Below are positions 10,496-39,891 of a DNA stretch of 64,000 bases, piece after piece. Each line of letters begins with the position of its first letter. Within the stretch, counting starts at the first letter, position 1. A program made the position numbers and the translations under genes. The notes beneath the pieces are model-generated. The model was not told the origin of the DNA, did no database searches, and saw only the letters and a program-made list of their open reading frames with translations. The DNA comes from a virus, in IMG/VR virus record IMGVR_UViG_3300028873_000014, positions 1 through 64,000 of that record; one strand, written 5' to 3'.

Positions 10496-10913
10496 GGTAA
10501 TAAATACAGATAATATGAGAGATAAAGTTAAGATAATAGAAAATGGAAAAGGTGCTGTACTAACGATATTAGATGATGATAAAGAGATTTATGGAGTGGT
10601 AGATGTGCAGCAACAGGAGCAGGTTACCGAAGTAACCCCGCAAGGGAAAAGGTTGCAGACATACTTGCGAAATGCGAAAATTACCGGGAATTTACGGGAT
10701 ATGGTGCATGTAGGCTATTTACCCAATGAACGATTATGTGGACATATAGTAGTTAGAGATAGTACAGAACCTATCTTTACAGATGACCCGGAACATGGTC
10801 TTCTTTGGAGAAATGGAGTAGTAGCCAGAACAGAAAAAGGAGAAGCCATTTACCGTACCAGTTACTACTCTGAAAATGGTGCAGATAAAGATGAGTTACT
10901 TATTAATCCCTAA
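10494..10913 (+). CDS. Hypothetical protein (139 aa) under the inverted repeat
   Basis: Not recognised. A beta-rich 139-aa protein without Cys clusters. It is the only plus-strand gene between the UDG-like gene and the late giant genes, transcribed alone, with an 11-bp inverted repeat over its start. Its end overlaps the convergent 2808-aa gene by 18 nt. The sequence does not show a helix-turn-helix, so autoregulation is only a guess from the site. Confidence 0.55.
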   Translation: MVINTDNMRDKVKIIENGKGAVLTILDDDKEIYGVVDVQQQEQVTEVTPQGKRLQTYLRNAKITGNLRDMVHVGYLPNERLCGHIVVRDSTEPIFTDDPEHGLLWRNGVVARTEKGEAIYRTSYYSENGADKDELLINP

Positions 10914-13900
10914 TATACTACCTCCATAATCACTTTCTCTATCAAAGTCCTGCCACTTCTTAAATGCTTTTAAACCAGGTACTGCGTTTTCAGTAGCTCT
11001 TCCCGCCTTAGAACTTCCTGCAAATGGTCCATTCTTGTAATCACGATCATCGTCATCCTGGAATGGCCATTCTGCAGTAAGATATAGTGCTTGTGCAAAA
11101 CTCTTAAGTGTTGTAGACATAGCTATCGGATTCTGTATATACTCAGCAAGTGTTACAAAACCTAATCCTGGGGTATACATCTGGTTTTCAAAACGTATAC
11201 GGGAAGTGGTGTATGCAAAAAAGTTTAACCATCTCTTTTCTGTAGAACTTTCTTCTCCTAAATCTTTAGCCCATTCTCTAATAACTGCAGCAACTGCAAG
11301 TAATGTCATACCCATCATTAAGTCCATAGCACATAGATATAGGTTTTTCTTCTGATAGTCTTTCAGGTTATTCCATCCACCTTTCATAGAGTCAGTCCAA
11401 TGACCATCGAACTCTCTAACTAAATTGATATAACTAAGAACTGTTCTCCAGCTACCTTCAGTCTCCCCAAGCATTAAGTTATTATACCTGCTGCCTATTC
11501 GGTCTGTCATTGTAGTAGGGAAGTGTCTATGAAATTGCATGAGCATCTGACCAAATAAGTTTTCTACAACTTCCGGTTGATCAACTTTTTCAAAGTTACC
11601 CTGTGTAATAGTTTGTATACCTTTACCTTTAAGTATGATCTTGTTAATATCTACCTGGTTAATACCTTCTTTAAGAGTCACCTTTCCTGTAGTGGGGTCC
11701 CATACATGAGCACCGTCCCATGCATTTACATCTTCCCCTGTAATAGAGTTATGTACTTGCTCTGATCTAAGTAACCCTGAGAGTAACGGGAATTGAGCAA
11801 AGGTAATTGCTAACCCTTCCCCTGAATAAGCAATATCTAACCAGGAGTGCCCCTTTTTCCCCTGTAGCTGCATCCTTTCTTCATTACCTATACCATAGTG
11901 ATGCATTACTGCTTCCATAAATGAACCAGGTCTTTTATCGAGATAAGTATCTTTTTGGGATATAAACTTCTTACCAATCCCCGCCAGGTAGTCTGTTAAA
12001 AACTCTTTACCTGCAATTGCATAATATTTACCAGGGTAATAACGGGAAACAATAGTTACTCTTGCATTAAGAGTTTGATACAATGCCATATTATTTAAGT
12101 TGTTAAAGGGATTTCCCATAACGCCAAGAGATGTAATTTCTTGTAACTTTTTTATCAATGCGCCTAACTTACCCTGGTCTATCGATTGACCATAGAGAGC
12201 CGTTCTGACCATATGTTCCAGTCGCTTAACAGTATTGGTATCATTAGGGTTTAATCTTACAGGAGTCCCGGAAGTATCTGTAATTACTTTACCTGCGATA
12301 TTAGTCTTAAGATAGTGCCGCCCGGAATCGTCATTATCAGGATCACTAAGTATCTTACCTGCAGCAGCATCTTTAAGAGCAAGTATTTGTCCTTCTATAG
12401 CAGCCTTGTTCTTATATACCTTGGATATACCTACATAAGCAATTAACTGCTTAATAGGATCTCTTTCCATATCCTCTACAGAAGTTTTCCTGTTCTCTTC
12501 TGCAAGTTGCTGTACAAGAGCTTTCTTTTGTTCCAGGTACTTGAACTTAGGTAAAGGGGAACCATCAGTATCTTTAAGTTGTTTAGCCGTAAAGTTACTG
12601 TTCAGCTCGTTAATCTTAGCCTTAATATCAGCAACTTTCTGTTCATTCCTAAAGTTATTCAAGATAGGTTTAGATAACTCCATACGGGTAAGACCACTCT
12701 CATTAATCTTTTCTGTACTTCCCGGAACTCTGGTGAACGGTTCAATAACATTCTGTGTGAGAAAAGGAAGTAAACCACTTTCACTAGCACTTTTAAATAA
12801 TTTATTAGAATATGCTAATAAGTTACCTTCTTCTATATCCCTTTCTCCTTTTTCCCCCATATCATGAGAAGCAGCTACAAAATGTTTTACATACCCTGTA
12901 TATACAGCTAATTGTGCTTTCTCCAGATCAGTTACGGGGTTATGTAACTTTACATGTCGGGGATCTCTGAGATCAGTTTCACCAGCAAAGTCATTGATCT
13001 TAATATGTTCTTTGTTAGGGAAGTGACCATTTTTCTTAGTAATTGTACCAATAGGTTCTTTAGTCTTGGGGTCTTTATCCATAGACCAGTATTCTGTCCA
13101 TGTCTGGTATCTGTTCCTGAAAGTAATCACACTAGGACTTTCTTCAGTTAACCCTTCCCGTAATTCTTTTCTATAAAAGAGTACACTACCGTCATATCCT
13201 TCTACGGGAACCATGTGCATTACTTTATCTTCAGCAGCTTTGTATTCATCCGATAAATGATGATACAAACCATCTTTACCATCTTCATCTTCTGCCTGTC
13301 TGAATTTTCTAAGTGGTTCTTTTTTATAATAAAGCTCGTTATTAAACTCAAGATCTTGCGGAGAAGCACCGTCTTTAGTAATTACTTCCCGGTATTGAAT
13401 CGGTTTACCTGTAATGGGGTCTTTAACCGCATCTTCTAACTTATCTCTAACTGCACGATAATGATCTCCTATAGGTCTAAGTAATCTTTTACCATCTGCA
13501 CTATACATAAACTGCCAGTCTTTCTTAGGGTCAACTTTCCTACCAAGTGCTTTCTCAAAGTCATGTCCTAAAGGAGCAAGTTCATTAGTAATTGCCTGGT
13601 GTGCTTCAAGATCACCAAGCATTTCAGCATGTTTAATCACTATACCTATATGTTGTACTAGCTCATCACTAATTTGTGTAGGAGCATTGAACATTCTTGC
13701 GACATATGAAGTATCTGTTATATCCTGCCAAATGATCTTTTGTAGCTGTTCCTTATTTACAAATGGGTTTAGGTTCCCACCTTTTTCTTTTACAAACTCA
13801 CTGGCTTTAATATTAGCATCGATGTTAAGATTATTAATTTGTCTGCGAACATTATCAAATTTTAACTTATGGGCATCGTCTAGTATATCTCTAAGATGTT

Positions 13901-16900
13901 CAGGTAAAATAACAAGATCAGAATTAGCAATTAATATACACTCTTTTAAATAAGGGTAAAACTCATCCTTACTAAACCAGTTTTTGTTATTTATGAACCT
14001 AGAATATTGATCTACAGTATCCCGGATATGATTAAGTACAGCATTTAATGCTTCTGTTTTCTTACCAATACTTGTAAGATTTTCAATAGTCTTTGCTACA
14101 AAAGCTAATTGTTTGTATGTAGTGGGTTGTGCAGTAGATGGTAAAGTAGAAGTTCTTGTACTAAGCACTTCCCACATCTTTTTAAGAGCTTTATCTAGTA
14201 TTATGGTACTATCTGCAGCAGCTTCTCCTTCTGCCTTATAGTCAAATCCCCCTGTAGCCTCACTATCTGGTGGGGGTAAGATATTACCAGTAGCAAGTGG
14301 ATCTTGTGGTCCTAGTATCTTATCTACAAATACCTGGTTACTATCAAGAGAGTGCTTTACAAAATCTTCCTGGGTAAAACCGGATAAGTTACCTTCATGA
14401 ATATCCATTCGTAAGTGATAGGTCTCGGGGTCTTCCAGTTTCATATGCCCCATCTTTTCCAGTAACCTACTGTATGTAGCTACCTGAATACCTTGTTGCT
14501 GACGGGTAGTAAGTTTTCCTGATAACCGCGATCCTTCATTTGGTTCATGTCCTGCAGTGGTGTAGTTACTATCATATACACTGTTCTTAGATGTCTTAAG
14601 GTCATAAACTTTAAGTGTACCATCTTTGGTAATTTTTAGCAGATCAATTGACCCCGCTACCTTAGAAACAGGATCAGATACAATAACCTGGGTAAGAACT
14701 ACAGAACCATCTTCCTTAATATCATTATATATCTTTTGTAGGGTGTTGTAGGCATCTGCTTTAACCTTCTCGGGGATAGCAATAGTAGGTATGTCCTGGG
14801 CTTTTTTACCAAGGATAATGCCCTGTAGAATACCATCAAAATCATTACCCCAATCCCTATTTAAACGATATACATCATCTTCAAACCTTCCCTTAATAGC
14901 AGTAGTTACAGATAGATAGGTATTACCTTTAGTATCTTTGTACTCATGGTTCTCGGGGTTAAGCGTAACTCTGTTAATAGGGTTTAGATATAGATCATCA
15001 ATAGCTTTCTTCTGTATATCATTAGCCTGTTCCTTCATCTTCTCTACAAACTCTTTATCTTCCGGGGAAAGTTGAAAGTATATCTCCCCACGAGAGTTAG
15101 CTTCTTTCATAGCAGCAAGGTCAAGTTTTGATAAGTTACCTTCTGTAATATCTTTAGCTGCTTCGGAATAACTATCTAACCTCTCTTTACCCGCAAACAA
15201 GTTCTTTACCCATTCCCATAATCTTGCCCACCACTTTTTACCAGTAGCATTTGAAGTACGTCCAACAATAGTTTCACCAATTAACTTACCGATAGCTTCT
15301 TTCTTAATCTTCTCTTCATCTGGTGTGCCGTCACTATTCTGGTAATAGGGGTTATCTTTATACTCTTCAAAAGTTTTATCATAGATAGGTTTATCCTCAA
15401 TATTCTTCATCATATCCCGCAATAGTAATGAGTTCTCGGGTAACCACTGTACATAGATATGAGCAGCTTCTTCCGGGAGAGTAGTAGCATCTGCCTTACC
15501 TGTAACTACATCTACTGTTCTGTTAATAACATCTGAAACAGCAACTGCATTTACGACTTTACCATCTACTATTATCTGTGAGACATTTCTTATTCTTCCC
15601 CCAAGAGAGTTGATAAAGGCGGTAATTTTTCTAGTAATTTCTTTCTCTTCTGAGATTCTTCTTTCAGTCGTTTGACTTGTGATCGGGCTTCTTCTAAAGT
15701 AGTCGGTTGCTGTTTGGATAGTATCTCCCTTTGTTTTTCTGCTAGTTCCTGAAATGGAGTTTTTGAGTTCATTTTGTGTATTTTTATCTATTTGTAAATA
15801 ATTATTTCTTTCTAAGTCTTTATAAAAAGCATTACTTATATTAATTATAGGATCAATAAAATAAGGAACATTATCTTTAAAGAATACATTGCGAGGGTAA
15901 AGATCATCTATAGTAATTCTTAACTCTTTATTTTCATATTCTCCATCTTCTTTACTTTCAAAACCATAATCAGATAATACATTATCTATACTTTCCTGAT
16001 TAAATAAAGAATCAGTTTTTATAAAGTCTTGTTTTAAAACTGGAGTTATCGAAGAATCTGTCCTTTTAAAACCAAGAAGATCGTATCCCGTTTCTGGAAA
16101 AAAGTAATTATGAACAATTAATCCTTTTAGATACATGTCTATTTCAGCAGGATGGAAATCATGTTTTACTTTCGTAACAGATTTTCCATCATTAGATATG
16201 TAAATAGTATGTTCACCTCCTTCAGCTAATTCCATAGCGGGGTTCATATCTTCTTTTAATTCGTAATTTCCATCTTGGATTTGTTTCCAGAGCGTTTCCA
16301 AATCTTGTCCCGTTCCTTGGCTTTCATATCTTGCTCTTTCGCCTCCTTTAAAGTAACTGATGGCTGATTTAATAAATTCCTCTTTGCGTCCTGATGGTAT
16401 TGCTGGATCGAAGATGGCTTGTATGTCATGTTTTATAGTTTTATTAGTTTTTTGTTGAAAATAAATAGTAGACTTATCTCTAGCGGGGTTTGTTTTTAAT
16501 TGATACCACTCATTACCATGTTCATCCTTGATACGTTGTACATTGTTCTTACCGTAAGTCTTATCTAAGGTGTTCTTTACTCTGTTCTCATAGAAGTCAT
16601 AAATAGGTTTGAGTGCAGCAAATCCTTCAGTTTCCACTCTCTTGAGTTCTTCTTGAAGTTGTTGCTTTTCTATTTCTTTGAGTTCTATGTTATGTTTATA
16701 CGCTTTATCAAACTCTTCCTTTGTAGCTGCTCTCTGTGTACCTCTACTAGAACTGGTAAAATAATATGAAGAATTATTTATATTTTCATCTCTCCTATAA
16801 GTTCCTGTATTTGTTTTTATAAAACCTTTTTCTAGTTGTTTATTTAACGTAAATAAATCACTATCTAAACTTTTTATCCTATCCTCTTTCTGTTTCTTAA

Positions 16901-19322
16901 AGTCCTCCAATGTCTGATGACCTTCTACCTTACTAGCTGTATCACCAGTTGGGAACAACACATTCTCATAACCTTTCTTAGCACTATCTTGTACTATAGA
17001 CTTAATAAAGAAAGGAATCCAGTTATCATCCTTAGTAAGTAATTGTAAGAATGAGTTTTTCTGTAACTTATTGTTCTCATACTCATTTGCCCTTCTCATT
17101 AATTCTTCCTTACTAATTTCATCTCCCTCATTAGATTTTAGAAAGTACTCTAAACCTTCTTCAAATGGGGAATTTGCAAGTAATCCTTTACTTTTATCTG
17201 ATGTGAACTTTTCATAAGCCTTATCAAATTCCTGTTTACTTATAGGTTTATTAGTTTTAAAAGGTTCCCCAGAGATATGTTGACCTTCATATATCTCATA
17301 TGTAGGATTATTATTTGTATCTTTTCCTTTTATATATCTTGTTCCATCAACAATAAAGTTATTTTTAATCTTCTGGAACAAATCACTCTGTACTTCAAGT
17401 ATTCTACGTGTTTTTACTTGTTCCTGCAATAAATCAGACAGATATCCAGTAGTACTAATAACCTTATTAGAATCTACTGTGTTTATAGTATTATCTATAT
17501 CTGACTTCCAGTCCTCGAATCCGTATGTAGAACCTCTTTTATCAAATCTCTTTTTAAACTCTTCTTTAGGAATTGTAATTACTTTGTCAAAATCCTGCAT
17601 TCTCTCTTTAAGAATATTGGTATTAGATACAAATAGTAATTTATTCTCTTTTCTCGCTTGCTGTTTGAGCCTGTCAAATAGATTAAGCATGAACTCATTA
17701 TACTCTTTAGGTTTAGCACCTTTATATTCCTGCCTTGTTCTAGAACCTCTATGCGTATCAATAAAGTTATTCACTTCATTAGCATAATCATCGTCAAGTG
17801 TTATAAATCTACTATCTCCTTTCTCTTTTAGGAAACTTTTACCAATAGTAGGGTGACCCCATATAATTCTATCACTAGGTTCTAGTACATTATGAATAGC
17901 AGATTCTGAGTCTATCCATTCTGCATTATCCTTCTTCCATCCTTTAACTACAGGATATTTATCATCACTTCTAAACCAGCCAATTCCGTTTTCCGTAGAG
18001 AACTGGGCATGACCCTTAATAGATGGTACTATACCTGGAGTAGCTATCTCATTCTCAGTATAGTTAGTACCTCCTGGAACGGTTAAATTAGAATAATGTT
18101 GTGTAGGCTTTGGTTTATCTAATCCTGTTTCTTCATACGCTTTTTGATAAGCTACTTTAGGTATTTTATTACCGTCTTTGAAGTATTCTTGAGTAACGCC
18201 ATCTTCTGCATAATAAGATCTATACCTTGAACCATTTACTTCAAATCCCCCGGAACCAGTTGATGATGAATCTCTTACTTGTTCTTTAGCAATATTAATC
18301 TCTACTGTATAAGAATACTTAGCAGCTAAACTTGTTGCTAAGTCATTTAATGATTTTGGTTTATCATTATTATATATATCTTTTATTAACTCTTTCTGTT
18401 CTTTAGGGAATTGGGCATTTTGCAGAAACTGATCTATAGTAATGTTTCCCTTTTGTAGTTTATTCCATTCTTGTTGTGCTTTAGGGGTTTGGAATATCTC
18501 AACTGATTTTAAAGTTGCATTTACTTCATTAGGTGCAAGAAAAGAGTTTTGATATTCATAACTTTTCTCATAATCTTGTCTTTCCCTTATCTGATTTTCG
18601 TAATGACTATCGGGAATATCAAAGGGTTGTTTCTGTAGTATCAGATCACTGGTATGTAGTGCTCGGTTTAATGGAGAGGTGTATAGTTCTGATATAGGTA
18701 TGGTACTTAGTTCTTTTCCTGCTGATATAGCTTGTTTAATCCCTTTATCTGTAAGATCAGTTAATGGTCCTCGCAAGTTACCCTTAGTGTTATCATCTGT
18801 CTCCCCATGACGCACTACATAGATATGCCCATTATCACTTTTAAACTTTTCTACATCCCCTGTATGGGTTTGTGATTCTGTATATTCTTTAGCATTAACT
18901 CTATAACTATCTGGTCTTCCTTCTTTTTCCCAGAGGTTAAGAAGTTTAAGTATTGAAGAGTGCGTAACTATTACTGTATTATCTGGTGCTGAGTGAAGTA
19001 GCTTATCAAACTTTGTAAGTACTCTATCCTGAAAACCATTAAAAGATTCGGCATTGTTTACAGGTATATCGGGGTGGTTAAGAATATGATCATCTATCAT
19101 TTTCTCATAATCAGGCTCATACTTACCTGCTATATCCCCGAAATCCATAGTAACAAAACTATCATCTACATGTACTGTACCAGGGTAAAGTTGTTCCAGT
19201 GCTTTACCTGGTTCCGGGAAAGTTTCTCCTGCTAATTTCCACGCACTATACGCACCATCTTCACCGAATAGTTTTTCGAGCAGTTTATACCTGTCATCAT
19301 TTTTCTGGGGGCAGTTTGCCAT
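10896..19322 (-). CDS. Giant polyvalent virion protein (phosphatase, kinases, zincin relic, nuclease)
   Basis: A 2808-aa multi-domain protein, last gene of the late operon and probably packaged and injected. Visible modules in order. About 1-240: histidine phosphatase with its halves swapped (MDFGDIAG, AESF..R, VTH121, then R171-H172-G-E174 and SPLNRA). 489-496: Walker A GHPTIGKS, a P-loop kinase-like domain to about 640. Three copies of a short module (about 358-399, 654-710, 832-880). About 775-960: a segment with FPTGDTASKVEGHQT and FYENRVKNTL seen in polyvalent proteins. About 1030-1165: Kinase-PolyVal-like fold (K1051, D1140-LYPR-N1145, D1157). 1284-1288: EEAAH, a zincin site without its first His. 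About 1480-1600: PD-(D/E)XK nuclease (D1560, D1574-L-K1576). The last 1200 residues are unassigned. Functions are by motif only; activity is not shown. Confidence 0.85.
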   Translation of the reverse strand: MANCPQKNDDRYKLLEKLFGEDGAYSAWKLAGETFPEPGKALEQLYPGTVHVDDSFVTMDFGDIAGKYEPDYEKMIDDHILNHPDIPVNNAESFNGFQDRVLTKFDKLLHSAPDNTVIVTHSSILKLLNLWEKEGRPDSYRVNAKEYTESQTHTGDVEKFKSDNGHIYVVRHGETDDNTKGNLRGPLTDLTDKGIKQAISAGKELSTIPISELYTSPLNRALHTSDLILQKQPFDIPDSHYENQIRERQDYEKSYEYQNSFLAPNEVNATLKSVEIFQTPKAQQEWNKLQKGNITIDQFLQNAQFPKEQKELIKDIYNNDKPKSLNDLATSLAAKYSYTVEINIAKEQVRDSSSTGSGGFEVNGSRYRSYYAEDGVTQEYFKDGNKIPKVAYQKAYEETGLDKPKPTQHYSNLTVPGGTNYTENEIATPGIVPSIKGHAQFSTENGIGWFRSDDKYPVVKGWKKDNAEWIDSESAIHNVLEPSDRIIWGHPTIGKSFLKEKGDSRFITLDDDYANEVNNFIDTHRGSRTRQEYKGAKPKEYNEFMLNLFDRLKQQARKENKLLFVSNTNILKERMQDFDKVITIPKEEFKKRFDKRGSTYGFEDWKSDIDNTINTVDSNKVISTTGYLSDLLQEQVKTRRILEVQSDLFQKIKNNFIVDGTRYIKGKDTNNNPTYEIYEGQHISGEPFKTNKPISKQEFDKAYEKFTSDKSKGLLANSPFEEGLEYFLKSNEGDEISKEELMRRANEYENNKLQKNSFLQLLTKDDNWIPFFIKSIVQDSAKKGYENVLFPTGDTASKVEGHQTLEDFKKQKEDRIKSLDSDLFTLNKQLEKGFIKTNTGTYRRDENINNSSYYFTSSSRGTQRAATKEEFDKAYKHNIELKEIEKQQLQEELKRVETEGFAALKPIYDFYENRVKNTLDKTYGKNNVQRIKDEHGNEWYQLKTNPARDKSTIYFQQKTNKTIKHDIQAIFDPAIPSGRKEEFIKSAISYFKGGERARYESQGTGQDLETLWKQIQDGNYELKEDMNPAMELAEGGEHTIYISNDGKSVTKVKHDFHPAEIDMYLKGLIVHNYFFPETGYDLLGFKRTDSSITPVLKQDFIKTDSLFNQESIDNVLSDYGFESKEDGEYENKELRITIDDLYPRNVFFKDNVPYFIDPIINISNAFYKDLERNNYLQIDKNTQNELKNSISGTSRKTKGDTIQTATDYFRRSPITSQTTERRISEEKEITRKITAFINSLGGRIRNVSQIIVDGKVVNAVAVSDVINRTVDVVTGKADATTLPEEAAHIYVQWLPENSLLLRDMMKNIEDKPIYDKTFEEYKDNPYYQNSDGTPDEEKIKKEAIGKLIGETIVGRTSNATGKKWWARLWEWVKNLFAGKERLDSYSEAAKDITEGNLSKLDLAAMKEANSRGEIYFQLSPEDKEFVEKMKEQANDIQKKAIDDLYLNPINRVTLNPENHEYKDTKGNTYLSVTTAIKGRFEDDVYRLNRDWGNDFDGILQGIILGKKAQDIPTIAIPEKVKADAYNTLQKIYNDIKEDGSVVLTQVIVSDPVSKVAGSIDLLKITKDGTLKVYDLKTSKNSVYDSNYTTAGHEPNEGSRLSGKLTTRQQQGIQVATYSRLLEKMGHMKLEDPETYHLRMDIHEGNLSGFTQEDFVKHSLDSNQVFVDKILGPQDPLATGNILPPPDSEATGGFDYKAEGEAAADSTIILDKALKKMWEVLSTRTSTLPSTAQPTTYKQLAFVAKTIENLTSIGKKTEALNAVLNHIRDTVDQYSRFINNKNWFSKDEFYPYLKECILIANSDLVILPEHLRDILDDAHKLKFDNVRRQINNLNIDANIKASEFVKEKGGNLNPFVNKEQLQKIIWQDITDTSYVARMFNAPTQISDELVQHIGIVIKHAEMLGDLEAHQAITNELAPLGHDFEKALGRKVDPKKDWQFMYSADGKRLLRPIGDHYRAVRDKLEDAVKDPITGKPIQYREVITKDGASPQDLEFNNELYYKKEPLRKFRQAEDEDGKDGLYHHLSDEYKAAEDKVMHMVPVEGYDGSVLFYRKELREGLTEESPSVITFRNRYQTWTEYWSMDKDPKTKEPIGTITKKNGHFPNKEHIKINDFAGETDLRDPRHVKLHNPVTDLEKAQLAVYTGYVKHFVAASHDMGEKGERDIEEGNLLAYSNKLFKSASESGLLPFLTQNVIEPFTRVPGSTEKINESGLTRMELSKPILNNFRNEQKVADIKAKINELNSNFTAKQLKDTDGSPLPKFKYLEQKKALVQQLAEENRKTSVEDMERDPIKQLIAYVGISKVYKNKAAIEGQILALKDAAAGKILSDPDNDDSGRHYLKTNIAGKVITDTSGTPVRLNPNDTNTVKRLEHMVRTALYGQSIDQGKLGALIKKLQEITSLGVMGNPFNNLNNMALYQTLNARVTIVSRYYPGKYYAIAGKEFLTDYLAGIGKKFISQKDTYLDKRPGSFMEAVMHHYGIGNEERMQLQGKKGHSWLDIAYSGEGLAITFAQFPLLSGLLRSEQVHNSITGEDVNAWDGAHVWDPTTGKVTLKEGINQVDINKIILKGKGIQTITQGNFEKVDQPEVVENLFGQMLMQFHRHFPTTMTDRIGSRYNNLMLGETEGSWRTVLSYINLVREFDGHWTDSMKGGWNNLKDYQKKNLYLCAMDLMMGMTLLAVAAVIREWAKDLGEESSTEKRWLNFFAYTTSRIRFENQMYTPGLGFVTLAEYIQNPIAMSTTLKSFAQALYLTAEWPFQDDDDRDYKNGPFAGSSKAGRATENAVPGLKAFKKWQDFDRESDYGGSILGINK

Positions 19323-19324
19323 AA

Positions 19325-22300
19325 CTATATACAGTCTTTTATACCTTGTAAAATCTCGTAATCAGATACTTTTCCTTGTAACCTGCGATATACACCTCTT
19401 GCTTTTTCAAGAAACTGCTCTTTATCTACCCCCTTACCCTTCTGTTCATAAACTTTATCTATTTCACTTTTCCAATCTATAGGGGCAATATCTTCACTAT
19501 ATTCATCCATGTAGTTTTCTTGTGCTAATTGACCTAACCCCGAGAGAGCAGAAGATACAACACTTCCTTTATCATCATATCTGGTCACATTACCATGTTT
19601 ATCTGTAGCTGTAAAGATACTATTATCTGTGGTAGCTTGTTCGTGTTCCGGAACTTTTGTAGTAATAGTCTCTGCAATTTCTTTCTGTCCCGGGGCATTA
19701 TCTGCGTATGGGGGGTTAGTAATTTTCTTTGTCCCCGGTAGCGCAACTGCATCTGGTAATGGTCCTAGTATTCCAGCAGCTTTCCACTGTCCTCTACTAC
19801 CTTTAGGGGTAATCTTCTCATAAACAGCGGTTACTCCTTTTGGTATGGTTTCCCCTTTAGCAATTAGTGACAGAGGTTCTCCTTTACCTTCTTCTTTACC
19901 TACACTCCGAAGTTGATAAGTACTACCATTCACCTTAACCGAGTAAGGAAACTCTATCTCTGTTTTCTTACCAGCAGTAGTTGTGTTAAAACCTGATGCC
20001 TCTATAGAACCAATATTCTTGGTCATTAGTGCCTTTTCTGTAGCATCGTACTTACCTGTTTTCTTAAACCCTTCTATGGCTATACCTTGAGTGTTAATAG
20101 CTTTTTCCTTAGTGCGAATAGCATTAAAGATATCTACTGACATAGTGCCCCCCGATAGCTGAACAGGTGAGGTAATTGCTTTTTTAACACGGTCTATATC
20201 AACTTTCTCCCCTCTATCATTAGTAGCTTCGGGTACATATCCAGAAACTTTAGGTATTATAGTCTTTAGGAAAAAGGTATTTCCGGTATGAGTAGCATAA
20301 CTAACCATAATATCATTCATCACTTTTTCAAGACTATCGCCAAAAACATCTTCTCCTTTCTTTTCGTCATAGTGAGTAGCAGAAAGTAATTTATTAACTT
20401 CAGTAACCCTATCGGAGAAATCTTTAAAAGCAAATGTCGGTAAGAACTTAATGAATGAACCACTTTTGAACTGACCCCCATCTTTAACTAAGAGATAGTT
20501 AAATAATGCAGTTGCATCATTACGTGTCTTGGGGGAGTTGTAAAGAATAGTAAAACTATCTACTAACCTCTGTTGTTGTTGTTCTGATAACTTTGCCCAG
20601 GTATTACTTTCAGCCTTGTTGATCTTATCTCTATTAGTCTTTTCCCCGGCAGCAACTAATCTTAGGAACTTGGAGATAAGGTAATTCCTGTTCTTTCCGG
20701 TAAGTGTGTCTCGTAATCTGTTAACAATATCTACGATACCTTCTTTACCAGGAGTATCATAAATCATACTATGGTCCAGGGTAGATAATGTACCTATTTG
20801 TCCAGTCTTCTGTAGCCAATTGATATATGCCTTAACTGCTAATGCCGATATTACATCACCCTTTAACGTCTTATTAAACTCTTCCTGCTGGTTCCTTCTT
20901 ACATCAAAGTTATTACCAACTATACTCATTATCTTTTTAAAACCATCTGTCTTTTCCAGGAAGATAGCTTTAGATAATTCGTTGATCTGTGTAACCATCT
21001 TAACATAGTTTCCATAAACAGGACTATGATCTTCTTTTGGAGAAGTAGTATCATCTGCTAATATCTGCCGGATATCTATAGGTATATCCATTTTAGCAAA
21101 TGCCTTATCACTAATCTGTTCACCATTAACTATACCTAAACTACGAAGAGGGTCTATGATATCACTTTCTGCATCTTCCCATGAAGGGGGTAACCCCTGG
21201 TTAAGTTTAATAACCTTGGAAATATTAGCCATTGTATCGGCATTCTTTTTAACCGAAAGAAGATCACGTACAGCAGCAAGTTCTAAAGTAGCATCTTTGC
21301 CATTATCTATAATGTTCTGTACTAACATATCCTTAGTCAAGGTAGGTAGTTCAGCACTTTCCTTACCTGGGTTTTGAGTAACTGCCTCTTTTAGTAACTT
21401 TTCGTACGCTTTTTCTAAAAGACCTGTCTTAGACATTCTTTGTTCAGCAGGAGTTTTGAGTACCCCCGAAAGGTTAGAAAGTTCTTTAAAGTACTTACGG
21501 ATAGCTGGTTGGAACATATATAAAGCCGCAATATCCTCGTTCATGCCCAAAGAAACCATAGTAGATACATACCCCACAGCCTCGATATTCCATCCAAGTT
21601 TTGCAGCTAACCGTAATTTAGCATTATCGGTCATGGTGTTAACTATAGCACTAAGAATTGAGAACTTTCTTTTACCATTTTCTGTAAAGTGGTTACTAAA
21701 ATCGTTGTACATTTTACCATCAAAAGTTATTCCTTCCGATGTCTTTTTCTCATACTGATTAAGTAGTGAATATACCAACATAGAATTTACAGCAGCACCG
21801 ATATTACGCTGTCCTTCCATATTATCTACAAAGGCTTTCTTTTTACCAGTAAGCGTATTTATCTCTGTATCGGGGTCTTTAAGCATATCCAGTACTATAT
21901 CCGCACCTTTTTCCCCGGTATGGGGATTGAGCAGGTCCTTAATCGTACTGGTAATATCTTCTACTATCTTAGTATCAGTAGGTTGGTTGATAATAGCATC
22001 TTTACCACCACCGGATATATCCTTATTGTTTAATAAAGCAATACGGGCAGCAAGGGTAATATTGTTAAGTACTCCATTATTCAATCGGTCTCCCCCCGAT
22101 GCAACAAACTGTTCTATGGTACTTGGCATCTTTAGTTCCTGCAAACAAGTCTTGTATAACAAGTCATTATTAGATAACTTGAACATATCTGCAATATCTT
22201 CATCAGATACAGGGCCATCATTAAGGTCCATAGTTATCTCATCTGTATCAGGGTTATACAGACCTCGTAATTCGCGTAACTTTCTTTTAAAGTTCTTGTT

Positions 22301-25300
22301 GTTATCTATCTGCCATTTTATATACTCATCGAACTTATCCTTATCTGTAGTAGCAGTTCCATAAGCTACCCGTGTACCATCTTTTCTGTATGTATCAGCA
22401 ATAGTATTGTAACCTTTATCTATATCAAAGTCAGCACCAGATATTTCTGTAAGTTCTGCAGGGTGAATACCTATAGAACCATAATACGCAGGTAAGATAT
22501 CTACCGTTGTAGTAGTAAGGTTAGAGTGTTTATCGTCCAGGGGAATACGTGTGATAAAACTATCTTTAAGTGCTGGTATAACAGTACCATTTGCCTCTTC
22601 TTTAAAATGTGCAGGACGTATCTGTTCTGAGAAAAATCCTAAAGAGTTACCTTGTTCATCAAATCGTTCAAAGTTATGACGAAGATCATCCAGGAAATAA
22701 ACAACTTCTTTAGTAGGATCAGGTAAACCTGCAAATGTTCTGGCTTCTTTATTATCCCACTTGTGATAGTTACTATACTTTTGGGGGTTATCTTTATACT
22801 CTCTATCAGTAATAACTGTCCATCTTTTTGGCTGACCAAGATCATTAAGTTCGTGTACCTGTTTAATCCTCTTAACACCATAGTCACTTGTCAAAGTAAG
22901 AGGTATACCTGGTACTTTTTCAGACATTACCCCTTTAGAGAAATAAGATAAGTACATCTGGGTAAACTTTTCTCTGGTTGCTGGTAAGTTAGGATCATAT
23001 ATATTCTCTCCATCTCTTGTTTCTGTAAAGCCTAAAGTTTGTACATCAGACCCTGTAGCACGTAAAGTATCCCGCATTCCATCAAAGAAGTTACCAAGAG
23101 TAGCTTTAACATGTTCTGCAGAGATATCTGAGTTAAGTTTTATCCCTCCGCTATGATCAAATAACTCATTAGCAGCAGATACATAATTATTCATTAACCT
23201 ATCTGCTACTCCTGATAGATACATCTCTCTCATCCTACCTACAGTAAATGGTTTACCATCTGTATCATGTGCTACTCCCATGAAAGATATAGGAGTATCA
23301 TCGTTCTGTTCAGCAAGTAACTGACCCCTTAACTGAGTAGGGTCAGTTATTACCAGCTTGTTAGAAGGATTCTCTGACTGTAAGCGCATGTACTGTGCCT
23401 GTTTCTGATTAAAGTACTTGCTATCTATGTCCTTGACCCCAGGGGCCATAGGTTCCTTCATAGCCTTACTTGCTGTTGGGGGGTGCGCAAAAGTTATAGT
23501 AGGTGTACCTGCAGTATCCATATCTTCTTCAAACTTTTCTAAAGACTCCCGAAGATGGTGCAGTTCTTCCATATATGGAAGAGGTTCCCACTTACCATTG
23601 ATCTTAATAGAAGTGTAATCCTTAAATAATGGAAAGGAAGAGCACTTGAGATAAGTCTGCCCATCAAAGTACACATTTTTCAATGAGTTAAACGCATCTA
23701 CTTTCCTGTTTAGTCCGCCAGCATCTATGAAAGCCTTTTCTGCTACAGGGGAACCTTTCTTAATCAGATCAAGAATATCCGCCTGTGCTTTAGTTAACTT
23801 ACAGAAACCAAATAGCATGTATCGAAGAGCTTTCTCTGTCATATACATCTGAGCATCTGCCTTATCCCCCTGTGTACCATCGAACTTAGTAAACTTTGGT
23901 TCAGGTATCATTACATGATGAAAAGTAGTAAGAGGATGAGTAATACCTAGTTCCGGGGCAATTACAGAAAACTCCACAGATCTACCTGTAGCATTAGCTC
24001 CTTTTAATCTTTTCGTCCAGTCAACAGCACCTTTAAATGACTTTGCTTCATCACCATAAAGTAACTGCACCATACCTGCGGTATTCAGGTAATCATTCAT
24101 AAATACCTGGGAGATATTATGCAGAAAGTTATCTTTTTCAAGATTCATCTTCTCGTTACGTTCCTTACTGGAAAAACCTGTAAAGAGAAAACCCGGAAGT
24201 AACTTGTTCTCTATTTTATCACCTTTCTTTTCTATCAATCCTTCATCTGCAAGTTGTTGTATAAACTCATCTCTCTGTTTTCCCCAATAGGTACGAAGTT
24301 GTCTTTCTATCTCATACCTTTTCAGGGGAGCAGGTTCTTCTCCTTGTGCGCCTTTTTCTATATCATCTGCAAGATCACCTAACATCTTAGCAGTCCGGTA
24401 AAGTTTTAAACCTCTCTTCTCTCCTGTATGATACCCCAGGAGGATCTTAGTATCTGGTTCTCTACCCTCTTCCTGTGCCTTTTCTATCTCGGCAATCTCT
24501 TTAGTAACACGGGCTATTCTATCTACTTCATTAGTTACCTGGTTGTATAAGATATCTATAGCATCTTTAGATAACTTTGGTTTACCAGTAGTCTTATCTG
24601 AAAAAACTGCATGTACTACAGGTGCCCGGAACATATGGGCAGTACTATTAGTCTCCATCACCCCTATGATGTGAGGAGTAGCATAAAAATGACCACCGTC
24701 AGTTGTTTGTATTCTTGCCCCTTCTTCTATGCCATAATTAGATAAAGCAGTTGTATATAGCTCTCTACCATTGTAGTCACCAAAAGAAGAACCTTTTTCT
24801 CTGTTAACCTCTAAGTTCTTGGTAGCAAATAACTCTTTCTCTCCTTCAGGTGTTTCCACATCCCCTGTACTATGTAATACCTGGCGTAAACCATCTATGG
24901 TCTCTACCCGTAACTTACCCTGGTCAGACATAGCAATAAACTGATCGGAAGAGAGCAGATGACTACTTTGTGTATCGGGGTTATTACTAAGTTCTATAAT
25001 CTTTTCAGGGTTATTTAATGAGAGTAATGCTGTCATATGATAGTTACCTTCCTGGTAACCGAACCTTTTTTCACCATCTGCTCCGATGTAAGACATGGTA
25101 TTTACAGTTTCATCAAAGTTACTATTACCTGCAAAAGTTCTCATTAACCTTGCAGCAGCACCTTGTGATTTTTCTTCTTCTCCTTCATTACTGGCAAAGA
25201 TGTTTTCCCCCTTGAGCATAGAACTTTCTATACCATATAGTTCATCATAACTTAAAGGAGGTACTCCACGATTAGCATTAACTGATTTCTGCTGTTTCTT

Positions 25301-28300
25301 TGTTCTTACCCCGGCATCTTTTCCTAGTGATATAGAATAAGTGATATAGTCAGGATGATAAGAAATACCAAGATTAGCTTTCATCCTATTACTAGTATCT
25401 ATGGATAACTTTTCAAGATCATCATCTGATATAGCTACAGAAGTTTTGTCCTTATTCGATATCTGATTTTGCAAATCGTGTATTGGGGAAAGTTGTTTAA
25501 TGATAAACTCTTTCTTTGCCTTTCTGTTATCTGCAAACTTTTCCAGGGCACTTAGATATATAGCAGCGTGTGATTGAGCAGATTGTTCAAACTGGGTTTT
25601 AGCACTATCTCTACGATTAGCACCAAATACACGTACAGTACCCTTAGTAGGATCAATTTCTGTAAATAGAGGATTTGTGGTAAACTGTTTAAACCCTTTA
25701 ACTACCTGGTTAAACAACAATCCATTTTTGGTAATAGACCAAACCTTAGTAGTGGCATTTCGTTCAAACCCTGTTTCAATAAATACTCTATCTATGAATG
25801 CAGCACTGTCCGGGTTATTACTATCCCTGATCTGTTCCATTTTGGTAATAACATCTTCTTCGGTAATACTATTAGCTATCCCCTTAAGCAGACCATTGTA
25901 TACACGTACAGCACTTACCCCCTGGACCAATGGAGTACCGTCCAGGAATTGCTTATTACCAAATTCATCTGTATAGGGGATAGTTGTTGAACCTATATAC
26001 TCCCGTAAAGACTTGGAAAGTGAGTCATATCCTCCAACACTATCTGCAGCTTTATCAAAACCTTTAAACTCTTTACCATGTTCTGCTTCCAGTTCTTCCT
26101 GATAATCTTCTTCCAACTTCTGTTTATACCCCATGATCTGCAGGTGAGTATCAACAGATTCTTTAATGGACTGTCTGATAGCAGGATTAGAAAAAATCTG
26201 GTGTTTATCCCGCAACTTAGTTAACCATTCTACTCTTGCAGCAGGGTTAGAAATACCATTTGCTCTTTCTATATACTTATCCCGCCGGGGGTTTAATAGA
26301 TCACGGTACTTATCTAAGATATTATCCAGTACTTTATTCTTATCATGTGGACCTTTACCGTTAACTTCTTGATGATATAATGCTGCTACAGTAGAAGATA
26401 ACTGATCTCCTTCCATCTGGTTCATGTTCCGGGGAATGTCAAAGGTCTTTCCGTTACCATCAGTTATCTGCTGTTTACCAAGTTCTATAACCTTCATAGC
26501 AGGGTCAGTTATAGAAAACTCACTATCCCTGGTAAAGTCATTATCCTGCAAACCTCTCTTTTTGTATGCCCCTCTATCTATATCAGTAAATATAGATTCG
26601 AGTTTTGACCCTGTAAGCTGGGAAAAGACATTCTTTATCCAATCCCATATACGAGCGAAGAATCCTTTAATTACGGGATCGGTCTTGACATTTTTATCAG
26701 TTTTCCACTGGTCAAACCTATCACCTAAATACTCTTCATAAAATAACTTAGTAAGGGCATCGTGAGAAAGGTTTTGGTAACTTGGGTGAAGTGCTTTAAA
26801 AGTTTCTAGTCGTGAAGAAGTGGCAAGTCTTTCTTTTTTAGCAAGAGATAATAAGTGGTCACGTTCTTCCTGTGTAGAAAGTAACCGGAAAATGGCATGA
26901 ATTGCTTCATGGTACTTACTTGGAGCATTTTCATAGGTCTTAATAGTACCAGTAACTTTACCAAGAGTATTCAGATGCGTAACAAACTCCCCCACTACAG
27001 TATTAGTAGCTACAAGATTCTCTTTAAGTATACCTAAGTTCTGAACAGTTACCAGACCTTCAGGGAAAATATCTCTGCAATACTGTATGAAATTATCTAT
27101 GTTCTCTATAGCATGTTCATCAAAAGGTTGCCCTTTACTGACTACTTTCATGGCACCTGCCTGTTTATCTAATAGGTCAAGTATTGCCATAGGATCTCCC
27201 CCTGAAGCAGCAGCTATCTCTTCAGGAGACATAGAAGTGAAAGTGAACCCGGGTATATCACTTTTGCCCATAGCAGCACCTTCTGTAATATTTACAGCAG
27301 GAACTACTTCTATAGGAATAGTACTATCTACAGGTTGATAACTTAGATAATAACCTTTGGTAATATTTGTAGATACAGTACTTTGCATACCCATTATCTC
27401 ATCTTTGGTAGGAGCAGTACCAATACTCCGTGACAAGTTCTCTGGTTTAATAGATACTCTCTGAAACTTACCATCTTTCCACACACCAGGGAATTTTGTA
27501 GCACCAAGTTTTGATAGTTTATAGTTAACCTCTTTTTCTATCCTGGCTACCATTTCTTCCCCATTACCAAACTGCATAGGAGTATTCTCATTACCCTTTC
27601 CTGAGTTTATAGAAATATTTGCCCGGTCTGTGGTATTAGTATCATAAACATTTACAGAAAGATCGCCCTTATCGCTGAGTTTAATTTTTATCTGAAGATT
27701 AGTACTGGCTGGTTGTTTAACGAATAAGGAAGAAAGTAAGTCACTTGCCTGTTTAGCAAGTTTTGGGTCTTTACCTTCAGTAGTACTTTTTATCTGTGAG
27801 GCAATTCCTTTATCACCAAAGATAGTATTGGTTAGTGTATCTATAGTCTCTTTAGTAACAGAACCTGCCTCTAAACCTATTTTATGTACATCACCATTAA
27901 CCATCTTTACAGAAGCAGTGTATCTACTCTGTGAAGCAGTGTTACCTGTAGTAACTATACCAGCAGAATTTCCATATACATCTTTACCAGTTTCATTATC
28001 TACTACAGCAAGTATTTTCTTACCAGTAGCTTCTATAGCCTGTACAGTAGGACGTAGGGCTTTCTTATCATCATTAAGATAATCATAACCATTAAACAGA
28101 GTAGAGATGGTCATAACTTTCTCTAGTTCTGCCCCCGAGAGTGAAATGGTATCTCCTTTCTTAGGTACTAAGTTATTTAAAGCCTGTTGTAAGGTCTGTG
28201 ACTTTTTATACTCATCCTGAAAAGTACGTAAAGCAGTTTCAGCAGTCTCGTTTGCTTTAACATGATATACCTTCTCAAACTGTTGTGGGGTAAGATCAGG

Positions 28301-31300
28301 AATAGGTATCTGTTTACTGTCTATTACAAAATTATATCTATTAGGATTAGTAACAAAACCAAGTGTCTCCCCCCCATACCTGACATCCATAGTAAACTCT
28401 TCTGTAGGATTGTATTGTATAGCAGGGTTATCTCCTAGTTGGTTATGTGTTCCGGGGGTTTTTCTGGTAATAGTTACAGATAAGTTTTCAGCAAACCCTT
28501 CTTTGGGTATATTCCGGAGTTTATTATCAAAATTGTTCTGAGCAACTTTTATAACATAATCTCTAATAGATTGTTGCGCTGCAGTATCTGTAGTAAATTC
28601 TTTATCTTTAATAAGTTCCGGAGGGTTTTTTCTAAGATCGAGTACCTGAAACTTAGTATTGTCGGCATTAGCTTGTACCTTAAACTTTTTACCTAACTCT
28701 TTATCAGTAATAGGATATATTCTTACCTGGTCGTGTAACTTACTAATCTTAGTATTTGGTTCAGTAGTAGTAGTTTCAGTAGGAGTAATATCTTTTTTAT
28801 CTAAGGAATATCCATCAATACTCTTTACCTCTTTAGCAGAATTACCAGATACCAGTTTTAAATAACCATTCTTTAGATCAGTTACTGTCCATCCTTTACC
28901 TGTGTTATCATAGATAACCTGGCCTTTTCTAACTTCACCAAGTAACTTAGGGTGTTCAATATCTACTATATCACCAAGTGCTCTATTTGCACTAGCGGGG
29001 TTTTTATAAATATCAGTACCGACTTTACCATCTTTCTCTATTCGATAATCACCCTTTTTAACTTCTACTACATGGGGATTACTTTTAAGATTAGGAAAAG
29101 AGGCAAGTTTCTGTGTATGATCAAAGTGATCATTTATAGTATTCTTAATAACTGATATAGCCTTTTCTGGTTCATTAGCATATACGGCATGTATAGCATT
29201 TAACTTTTCATGCAGGTCTTTACCATTAGAATCTTCTGATAAGTATTTATTAGTACTATCTGAATAACCTGTACTACCATGATCCATAGCATCTGCAGAA
29301 AAATCCCCGGCATCTACAGTAGGCATCTCAAGAGTAGATAACATATCTCTACGTATCTCTTCTTCATTAAACTTTTCTATAGGCTTTGGTTCAGAAGTAA
29401 CAGGAGTTTCCCCGGTAGGAGTAACTACAGGTTTATCTTCTGTAACAGGAGTAGTTTCAGTAGGTTTGTTACTTAATAACTTATCAGCAGCAGCTTGTGC
29501 AGCTTTATTGGCTTTAACTGCTTCTTCTGTTTTAGCCTCCAGTACAGAGTTATGAAAAGCATCCAGGAACTTCTGTCTGCCAGCAGGGTCCATAATCCTG
29601 TTAAGTGTATCTAACAAGTTATCATGTTCTACCCCGAGACGGTAGTAATCAAGGTATGAGTCAGCTATTTTATCCAGTGCCTCTATATCTAATTCACTAT
29701 CATATCCTGTTTTACCTTCCTGTAAAAGATGGTTATTGAATAACTTGGTAAGTAGGTTACGAATAGGACCGTGATATTCCCCGTGTAGAGCATTCATAGC
29801 AATTGCCCTTTCTTCAGGATCGTCTATTCCAAGTGCAGCATTGTACTTACCATTATATCCATTTACAGCTTCCTTATACTTATTCAGTAAATCGATCTGT
29901 TCTTTAGTAGTCTTTAGTGATTTAGCTTCTTTAAGTGTTCCGGGGGCACTTTCTGAACTTTTAAGGGTAGCAAGTAGAGATAACTGTTCCTGCATACGAG
30001 GGACAGATGCAAAAGTAGATACATCATAGAAAGGAATATCTTTAACTTTTCCCCGTAAGCCAGTAGTAACATTATCTCCATTAATGATCTTGTTCTGCCT
30101 GGTAAGTTTATCTATAGTAGATGCTTTAAAGAAAGAGGCAAATCCTATAGCTTCCGTATGTTCTGCATTTAGTTGTTCTGCAGCAGCTCTTTCTTTACTA
30201 CCTTTTGGGAATTTGTTAGGGTCAGTGGGTAGAGGAAATGCTTTTTGCATATCTCGATATGTCTTAGTCATACCATGAGCCTGTTCCATGAAGTCAGTAA
30301 TTTTCTGCTGCATTTCTGCATGACTCTCTTCTGAGAACTGTGGTTTGTTTTCAACATTTGCATATATGGCATCATGTAACTCCTGGGGGGAAAGTGAAGT
30401 AACCTGATCCTGCAACTTAGCGAGATATGGATCAATCATCTTATTCCTTGCAGCAGATATCAGGAACTTAATACCTGCATCTGATCTGCTATCTTCTTCA
30501 CTCTTTCTATCTTTAAGTGCAACCGAAGCAGCAATTTTATCATTCCATACTCCTTGCAGGATAACATCAGACATATAGTTTCCAAGAGGGTTCTTCCACT
30601 GATCATTAACAGCTTTTACATATTCTTCTGCAGCAGTTTGTTTAGTACTCCTATTCGTGTTAAATTCTTCTATCTGTTCAGGGGTAGCGTCTTTAGGCAA
30701 TTTCTTCTCTGCAACTCTATCACCAACGGCTTTAATACCATGACCTCCGGCTTCCATAAGTGGAGAGATAATAGCACCTGTCATAAACCCCGAGATGAAA
30801 GTTTTTGCACCTTCTGGGGTAAACTGTTTATCTATAGCGTTACCAAGTGCTGTCTGCCAATCAGTATTTTCATGACCGTATTGGGCCTGGTAGTAACTTT
30901 TAATAGCATCATCTACAGTAGCCATAGAAGACATAGTTAACCCAAAACCTGTTCCATGTGCAGCAGCTTCATAGTAATTAGCAGGGTCTTTAAACCCTTT
31001 AACCGATCTAAGTGCCCTTGCTCTAAAACTATCCCATCCATCCTGTTTAACAGCAAGTCTTTCCCCTGTAGCAGCAAATTCTTTATCTGAAGTAACTCTT
31101 GCAAATTTTGAAAACTCATCAGGAGCTTGTGATAGTAAGGATTCTTCCAGGGCGGAAGAACCTTTAAGTAAATTACCAAAGGCGAGTTTGTTAGTGTATA
31201 GAGCCACAAAGGTGTTAAAAGCACCATCTTTTTTAGCAGCTTCCATAGCATTATCCTGTATGTTCTTCAAGTCAAGTCCTACAGGATCTTGCCCATTTGC

Positions 31301-37478: not shown

Positions 37479-39875
37479 TTATAGGTACTCTACTTTATAC
37501 CCCATTGATTTTAATCGAATTATTTCGTGATCAGGTAAGTCAACTTCTTGTGCTCCCATAGACACACCACCACCATTTTGCATATATCCCCCATACCTAC
37601 CTTGTGGGGCGTAATACATACCTGGAGCACTTGGAGTATTATCAGAAGGACGGAAAGTACCTGTATTTGGGGTGTAGTCACCTCTGTTTCCTTGGGTATT
37701 TAACCTCTGTGCCCCGAAAGTGTTATCAGATAATCCTTGGTTCTGGGTAAACTGGTGTAGCTGTCTTTGATTCTTTTGATCATTAAAGTAGGATGCAGTT
37801 ACTAAACCTGCTCCCAGTAAGTTATCAAACTCATGATTAGCAAAACCTAATCCGTTATTACCTCTATGAGAACTTCCCCCAGGACCAGACTGTGATGTTG
37901 TCATAGGTGCATTTTGTACCATCGGTTGAGTACTAGGTGTAGTAGGAGATACCATTGGTTGATTGTTATTATCTACCTGTGGTTCATTTGCATACGCTGC
38001 AGTTACAGGATTATTAGGGTCTGTAGCAGGGTTATATCCACCATCTTGCATGAATTTCTGTAGACCACCATATTCTTTTTTTGACCAAGATTTACTGTTC
38101 CTGGCAAAATTGGCCATCTGTCGTACATGTGGGTCAGAACTATGTAAAGCCTCTTCTGTAGTTTTACCTGTCCTTTTTTTATATGCAGTAAATTTACCTT
38201 TGTTCTCAGGCTTAATTTTAATACTACCACCATCTTTCATCTCTTCTGCCATACCTCCTTCCTGATAGCTCATACCACCAGTACCATATCTGTCTACTAC
38301 TCCTCCATTAGCAAGATATGCATACTCCATTGGTTCGGGCAGATAACCACCGAACTTTGACCAGGAAGTACCATTCATAGTAGAACCTCCTTTTCTTGGT
38401 TGCCCTGGTCTTTCTTCATTCCTTGTATCATCTATAAACTGTACCCCACCACCATTTTGATAATTAGGCATTGGGGCATAGGTATTTTGATAAGATAAAT
38501 ACCCCCCAAGTTCAGCACCCATCATACCGTTCTGTGTTCTCATAAACTCATGAGGACGTACTTGTGGGTTAACATAGTTAGGGTCGTTATTAGTAGCAAA
38601 GAAAGGTCCACCGAGTTTTGCAAGACCTTGTTGCTGTCTAACAGAGTCTATGGAATAATCGGTATCTTCCCCTGTATGCCAATTATCCTGTTGGGGTCTT
38701 GACATACCTTTTGGCGTAGGAGAATACCCCGCATTAGTATTACCTGCTACAGGGGAAGGTTGTTGGTATTGAGGGGGATAGTTATTATCTCTTGGATAAT
38801 ATCTAAGACCTTCTTTATCACCAGCATCATACATATCCCCATAATCCTGGAAACCTTTGAGCATATTACCAAGGGCAGATACTCCACCACCCTGTTGCAT
38901 CTTTTTACCAGACATGTATTTTTTCATGGTCGGATCAGTTTTAAGTTCCTGTATACGTTTATTAACCTTATTTGCATAGTCGGGATCACCAGGATTATAT
39001 CCGGCAATACCTTTCTGTTTGATATAGTCAGCAGTTAAGTCCATCAAAGGTACTTTACCTTGAGGGATTTTAGCACCTTGTGTATTACGATAAGTATCTA
39101 TTAGTTGTGGGTGTTGGCGTAGGTAACTTTCTGTACTATCGGCATTTGTGATATTAGCCCCCATACCAGTATTATCTCTTACCACATTTACCCCCGGGAC
39201 ACGATGATCTGCAAGGAAGAGTGTGTTATACTCAGGTTTGTACTTTTCAGCAACATTCCACCCACTCATTACCTGATTCTGATCAGTATTATTATATCCA
39301 TGTGATCCGAGAGCAGTTTCCTGTCCTGCAACACCTAACATGGTATAGGGGTCAACTCCTTTACGTTTTGCACTTGCAACTATATCATCAAGTAATTGAG
39401 TATCTACATTAGCTCCCCGGAAGTTACCATTATTAAGTTTAATGGTATTTTCTCCAAAGTACTGCTTATTATCTATATGATTCTGAGCCTCTGTAGATAA
39501 ACTATCCTGTATAGTAGATAACCTGTTAATATTAGGGTACTTCATACCATAGTTATCCATTGGCGCAGTAGTACTATTATCCACTACTTGTTTTACCGGA
39601 CCAGGTAGATATATACTAGGGGTTACACCTGAATAAGTTCCTCCTTGTTGATATCTTACAGGTATTTCTTTAACTACTTGGCCAGGAAATTTATAATCTC
39701 TTCCGGGGTACATCATAGAACTTGCTCCAGTATTATCTACCCCCAGAACAGGATGAGGTACACCTTTCATAGTAATATCTGAAGAGTTTATGTAGTTTAC
39801 AGAGTTATCTTTATCAGGCGAATCGTATTTAAAGCCCTCTATGGAAAACCCTCCTGTCTTAAACTTCTTCTTCAT
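37479..39875 (-). CDS. Gly-Gly-rich virion protein with lytic transglycosylase-like domain
   Basis: A 798-aa protein. Residues about 160-290 look like a lytic transglycosylase or Slt-type domain: LLDDIVASAKRKGVDPYTML then AGQETALG with probable catalytic Glu186. Such a domain in an internal virion protein would open peptidoglycan during DNA entry. The rest is low-complexity with many (M/Y)Q-x-GG motifs (RYQQGG, MQQGGG, YQNGGG, MQDGGY, MQNGGG). Near the end is a conserved block: IKPENKGKFTAYKKRTGKT, then NFARNSKSW. I associate this block with Bacteroidota phage structural proteins. The open frame begins at TTG 39926, overlapping the muzzle gene by 35 nt; ATG 39875 (MKKKFKTGG) avoids that and is preferred. 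Confidence 0.7.
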   Translation of the reverse strand: MKKKFKTGGFSIEGFKYDSPDKDNSVNYINSSDITMKGVPHPVLGVDNTGASSMMYPGRDYKFPGQVVKEIPVRYQQGGTYSGVTPSIYLPGPVKQVVDNSTTAPMDNYGMKYPNINRLSTIQDSLSTEAQNHIDNKQYFGENTIKLNNGNFRGANVDTQLLDDIVASAKRKGVDPYTMLGVAGQETALGSHGYNNTDQNQVMSGWNVAEKYKPEYNTLFLADHRVPGVNVVRDNTGMGANITNADSTESYLRQHPQLIDTYRNTQGAKIPQGKVPLMDLTADYIKQKGIAGYNPGDPDYANKVNKRIQELKTDPTMKKYMSGKKMQQGGGVSALGNMLKGFQDYGDMYDAGDKEGLRYYPRDNNYPPQYQQPSPVAGNTNAGYSPTPKGMSRPQQDNWHTGEDTDYSIDSVRQQQGLAKLGGPFFATNNDPNYVNPQVRPHEFMRTQNGMMGAELGGYLSYQNTYAPMPNYQNGGGVQFIDDTRNEERPGQPRKGGSTMNGTSWSKFGGYLPEPMEYAYLANGGVVDRYGTGGMSYQEGGMAEEMKDGGSIKIKPENKGKFTAYKKRTGKTTEEALHSSDPHVRQMANFARNSKSWSKKEYGGLQKFMQDGGYNPATDPNNPVTAAYANEPQVDNNNQPMVSPTTPSTQPMVQNAPMTTSQSGPGGSSHRGNNGLGFANHEFDNLLGAGLVTASYFNDQKNQRQLHQFTQNQGLSDNTFGAQRLNTQGNRGDYTPNTGTFRPSDNTPSAPGMYYAPQGRYGGYMQNGGGVSMGAQEVDLPDHEIIRLKSMGYKVEYL

Positions 39876-39891
39876 GTTACCAAAGTTATGA

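Follow-up and report, generated by a model that had tools for sequence, protein, structure and literature searches.

In a divergent crass-like phage, a putative virion cargo protein carries a circularly permuted histidine phosphatase, a PolyVal kinase and further enzyme modules

The viral DNA analysed here (the window) comprises 64,000 nucleotides, positions 1 to 64,000 of the 100,171-base IMG/VR virus record IMGVR_UViG_3300028873_000014, and contains a large open reading frame (ORF) at positions 10896..19322 that encodes a putative cargo protein of the gp49/g065 type, into which enzyme modules are inserted. An original prediction, made from the sequence alone, had described the 2808-residue product as a virion-type protein combining five or more enzyme modules next to an RNA polymerase. 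The frame proved to be open throughout its 2808 codons and to lie on the minus strand, which the prediction had not specified and which also holds for all features of the window described below. Every cited residue was found at its position (GHPTIGKS at 489-496, K1051, D1140, N1145, D1157, D1560, D1574 and K1576). Matches to a kinase, a phosphatase, a P-loop domain and a nuclease all fall within this one polypeptide, which bears out its description as a multi-enzyme polyvalent protein.

The family to which the protein belongs is indicated by its C-terminal core, of which residues 2288-2795 (10938..12461) form the best-conserved block. A core profile made from thirteen proteins around gp49 of crAss001 and g065 of Cellulophaga phage phi14:2, with the window left out, matched this block at 85.9 bits (E 3e-27), reversed decoys scoring about zero or less, and hhalign gave 99.5%. 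A second profile, covering the C-terminal block alone, reached 91.7 bits, as against 4.2 or less for 200 shuffles. By this core the protein is, to judge from the profile matches, a member of the gp49/g065 virion protein family of Crassvirales. Since purified crAss001 virions contained gp49 (PMC10172136) and phi14:2 g065 is annotated as RNA-polymerase-associated from tandem mass spectrometry proteomics, the virion-type label, which the prediction had not demonstrated, is now backed by homology to virion proteins of two phages, and the window protein may well share their location.

At its opposite end the protein begins with a Cys-Pro leader (residues 1-45, 19188..19322), which it has in common with other proteins that carry the gp49 core and with a number of RNA polymerase ORFs. 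The leader, about 45 residues long and of the type M-x(1-4)-C-P-N-K-x-S-x-E-W-K-x-L, precedes differing modules in different gp49-core proteins, and a leader profile from 13 proteins, again excluding the window, scored 23.4 bits against it, compared with 7.6 for the best reversed sequence. When five leaders were used to scan 2.9 million viral contigs with a pattern that required neither frame position nor a long frame, 52 loci were recovered, and in each the match begins no more than 23 residues into a large open frame, the frames ranging from 660 to more than 2700 residues. The gp49 core was present at 41 of these loci and an RNA polymerase motif at 5, while 3 of the 6 others adjoin a weak core match. 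The leader also occurs in the records L018, L029, L043, L075, L099, L101 and others, and in four other large proteins with the leader Pfam recognised no domain. We regard the leader as a candidate virion-targeting signal, which may act in packaging or ejection; we found no published description of it.

A phosphatase module follows the leader. Pfam His_Phos_1 matched the protein with E 5.5e-22, and the match is divided into two parts: residues 48-128 (18939..19181) correspond to His_Phos_1 positions 69-154, the C-terminal half of the fold, with H121, and residues 167-248 (18579..18824) to positions 1-80, the N-terminal half, with R171, H172 and R220. Each half is recognised independently of the other, residues 48-128 alone at E 4.9e-7 and 30 bits and residues 167-248, within the piece 159-300, at E 5e-16 and 59.4 bits (cut-off 21.7 in both cases). 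The two halves are complementary and the C-terminal half comes before the N-terminal one, in the reverse of the canonical order, which constitutes a circular permutation. A sequencing or frameshift artefact behind the permutation was considered and ruled out by the open frame together with the independent matches of both halves. Going by sequence, then, this is a circularly permuted histidine phosphatase of branch 1; the predicted phosphatase domain is real, although the order of its fold is not the canonical one. The nearest solved enzymes are the PhoE-type phosphatases 1h2e and 1ebb, with which the window protein shares both fold halves and the complete R/H/R/H core (R171, H172, R220 and H121), and from which it differs in the reversed order of the halves and in having T58 aligned with the usual Glu donor. 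The module appears to be a rare rearrangement of a fold that is widespread among enzymes, and no report of a permuted histidine phosphatase was found in the literature searched, which held few subscription journals.

The second enzyme that sets this protein apart is a Kinase-PolyVal domain (PF18762) at residues 1016-1163 (15834..16277). With E 1.5e-31, 110 bits against a cut-off of 27, and the catalytic K1051, D1140, N1145 and D1157 all in place, its assignment by profile is unambiguous, and the Kinase-PolyVal-like fold of the original prediction is upheld. We searched 131 records, of which many are fragments and 13 are genomes annotated as crass or crass-like and covered in full; Kinase-PolyVal and His_Phos_1 turned up solely in the record to which the window belongs. 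Because neither was found in the 130 related records, the two domains look lineage-specific. L037 and L020 revealed no divergent kinase in the corresponding region, tblastn of the kinase against phages and plasmids had no hit with E at or below 1, and close-relative scans with the kinase, phosphatase and C-terminal regions of the protein found nothing. The kinase segment has a G+C content of 0.286 (0.161 at third codon positions), compared with 0.37 (0.275) for the core; the lower value would fit a later acquisition.

Between phosphatase and kinase lies a P-loop nucleotide-kinase-like module (residues 476-645, 17388..17897) with the motif GHPTIGKS at 489-496. By sequence, its profile could not be tied convincingly to any PDB or Pfam family, and no relative emerged when bacterial and archaeal genomes were scanned with a pattern; 22 relatives are present in IMG/VR. 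The AlphaFold2 model of the domain had a predicted local distance difference test (pLDDT) score above 90 across the domain, and Foldseek placed CMP, dephospho-CoA and adenylate kinases as its best PDB folds (probability 0.97-1.00, E 5e-4 to 4e-3). Template modelling (TM) scores of about 0.4 allow the superfamily to be assigned and not the substrate, and the model thus points to an adenylate-kinase-like P-loop kinase fold at superfamily level only, in agreement with the predicted kinase-like domain. The module is flanked by two modules of unknown function, residues 263-462 (17937..18536), matched in L020 and L037 at 78.7 and 95.3 bits, and residues 646-965 (16428..17387), parts of which are common to L020 and L037 and which has KGYENVLFPTGD at 783.

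The arrangement of these modules varies between related phages. The P-loop may stand N-terminally in gp49-core ORFs, form an ORF of its own upstream (a separate ORF in L001/L019 and L023/L024/L028) or be fused to the C-terminal end of the RNA polymerase ORF (L021, L025, L026). The window protein has the order residues 263-462, P-loop and residues 624-924, whereas the order in L037 and L020 places the counterparts of the first and third side by side, ahead of the P-loop. Judged by these sequence comparisons, the modules appear to move as units. An ART-PolyVal domain was found in cr55_1 (E 5.9e-10) and, slightly below the cut-off, in L037. Near-identical linkers (ITPQQKQQAxQLYSQYLD and SNPELANxVYEALGF) recur beside differing modules in L002, L019, L027, L029, L035 and L037, and such recurring phrases may mark places where modules recombine. 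Regarding the predicted combination of enzymes, only the phosphatase and Kinase-PolyVal look specific to this genome; the P-loop, zincin-like and nuclease domains recur in related phages.

The zincin-like domain (residues 1226-1377, 15192..15647) is present by homology, and E1342 aligns with its third ligand, but the motif at 1284-1288 reads EEAAH. A canonical zincin was rejected, as EExxH is found in the window protein and accounts for 23 of 53 aligned segments from related proteins, that of crAss001 gp49 among them; the alignment includes close homologues and had the window in its seed, and 27 of its segments have HExxH. Many crass gp49 proteins, among them those of crAss001 (L008:7434-11483), L012, L014, L006 and L037, read LPEExAH instead of HExxH and retain the downstream Glu. 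Because of the EExxH variant, protease activity is doubtful, and a role in packaging or assembly seems likelier for the domain than one in proteolysis. In the virion RNA polymerase of N4, a metallopeptidase region is required for encapsidation and the protein itself is unprocessed (PMC5512222). Further downstream, residues 1431-1640 (14403..15032) match the PHROG 298 exonuclease (E 2.5e-6) and contain D1560 and D1574-x-K1576, followed by Q...Y, which supports the predicted PD-(D/E)XK nuclease; no PDDEXK Pfam match was obtained for the 2808-residue protein at E up to 1. PDDEXK domains have been described in some of these large crass proteins by Yutin et al. 2021 (PMC7886860).

The genomic setting resembles that of other crass-like phages. 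The predicted RNA polymerase neighbour is a 4349-residue ORF (19325..32374) with the crAss-type DxDxD motif, here DFDID, at residue 3315, and the cargo-protein gene begins 2 nt past its end. Around this motif the ORF has local similarity to the polymerases encoded by cr55_1, crAss001 (gp50) and L033, and phi14:2 g066, the solved polymerase 6vr4, likewise carries DFDID. Residues 2250-2344 of the polymerase ORF show a weak similarity to Peptidase_C92 (E 0.019, below cut-off). Upstream of both genes is an 815-residue ORF (37479..39926) homologous to the crAss001 cargo protein gp45 (33.9 bits), and the order of gp45 homologue, RNA polymerase ORF and cargo-protein gene parallels that in cr55_1 and cr108_1.

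With crAss001 gp49 and phi14:2 g065 the window protein shares the C-terminal core, the location in the transcription block and the zincin-like domain, whose motif is EExxH in the former and HExxH in the latter. These proteins have 1349 and 1421 residues, however, and lack the phosphatase, the PolyVal kinase and the P-loop. Also comparable are cr55_1 QOR58154.1 (Culoivirus, 2007 residues) and the homologue in cr124_1 (Burzaovirus, 2068 residues), both with the gp49 core, a zincin-like domain and a P-loop on the N-terminal side; cr55_1 likewise has a PD-(D/E)XK nuclease. Both differ from the window protein in having HExxH and neither kinase nor phosphatase, and cr55_1 in addition has its ART-PolyVal domain. 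The gp49-type gene of cr124_1 (L004:7917-14123) contains many in-frame TAG codons and is open when TAG is read as Gln. A parallel of another kind is found in the polyvalent phage proteins described by Iyer et al. 2017 (PMC5512222), among them N4-like virion RNA polymerases, which likewise join enzyme domains of unrelated kinds within a single virion-associated chain and also feature Kinase-PolyVal, a metallopeptidase fold and a link to an injected RNA polymerase; their text mentions neither 'phosphatase' nor 'crAss', whereas the core of the window protein is of the crass gp49 type. Polyvalent virion proteins are thus already known, and the permuted phosphatase, the combination of phosphatase and PolyVal kinase on a gp49 core, and the leader are new as far as our tools show.

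Taken together, we consider it probable, at roughly 70%, that the protein is a gp49/g065-type virion cargo of a divergent crass-like phage, delivered with the RNA polymerase, and that its modules act early on the host. One polypeptide combines a conserved leader and a conserved core with enzyme modules between them; by analogy with its relatives, it would be taken into the capsid alongside the virion RNA polymerase and leave with the genome at infection, so that the phage probably delivers an enzyme set into the host together with its polymerase. Less certainly, phosphatase, PolyVal kinase, P-loop and nuclease might then, ahead of phage gene expression, target host proteins, nucleotides or DNA. 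This early action is suggested by homologues and by the polyvalent-protein literature, in which such phage proteins are viewed as packaged, injected effectors (PMC5512222). A host takeover or counter-defence purpose is plausible; PADLOC matched no defence-system model to the 2808-residue protein. Several observations weigh on the other side. T58 occupies the position of the acidic donor Glu of PhoE, with D60 two residues further, the single-sequence AlphaFold2 model of the phosphatase region had a pLDDT of 35 and was not used, and the zincin-like domain departs from HExxH. Moreover, the window's other structural ORFs for the most part had no match to crAss001, so that the phage is a distant crass-like lineage.

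It could also be that the modules serve the start of the phage's own transcription or replication rather than acting on the host, with kinase and phosphatase tuning the co-packaged RNA polymerase, the nuclease processing phage DNA and the P-loop supplying nucleotides. The constant location beside the RNA polymerase ORF and the fusion of the P-loop to that ORF in three records would agree with this. However, related phages with the same core manage without kinase and phosphatase, and many gp49-core ORFs have only about 1100 residues, so these enzymes are not needed for a process common to all, and we consider this explanation unlikely. Still less probable is that the inserted domains are worn-out pseudoenzymes retained as structural or packaging parts, for which one could cite the widespread EExxH motif, the displaced acidic donor of the phosphatase and the use of the N4 metallopeptidase region in encapsidation (PMC5512222), since the K/D/N/D of the kinase, the R/H/R/H of the phosphatase, the P-loop and the D/DxK of the nuclease are all intact, which would not be expected in decayed domains. 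Equally improbable is a polyprotein cleaved into separate enzymes at assembly or after ejection: modules do stand as own ORFs in some relatives, as the P-loop does, and P1 DdrB is cut before encapsidation (PMC5512222), but no site of cleavage was recognised, the protein's own protease fold is without HExxH and the N4 virion RNA polymerase is packaged unprocessed.

Crassviruses are the most abundant human gut viruses, and the finding that virion cargo delivered with the polymerase may include such enzymes bears on the roles of crass virion cargo proteins beyond transcription. A gp49 cargo protein can carry a variable enzyme set behind a conserved leader, and this combination of variable enzymes with a constant leader makes a possible role of the leader as a packaging or ejection signal simply testable. 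More tentatively, one could imagine a plug-in cargo system in which the leader sends whatever enzymes are attached to it into capsid and host, in this case the permuted phosphatase and the kinase. If this were so, the system would bring a phosphate-adding and a phosphate-removing enzyme into the host as a pair before phage gene expression.

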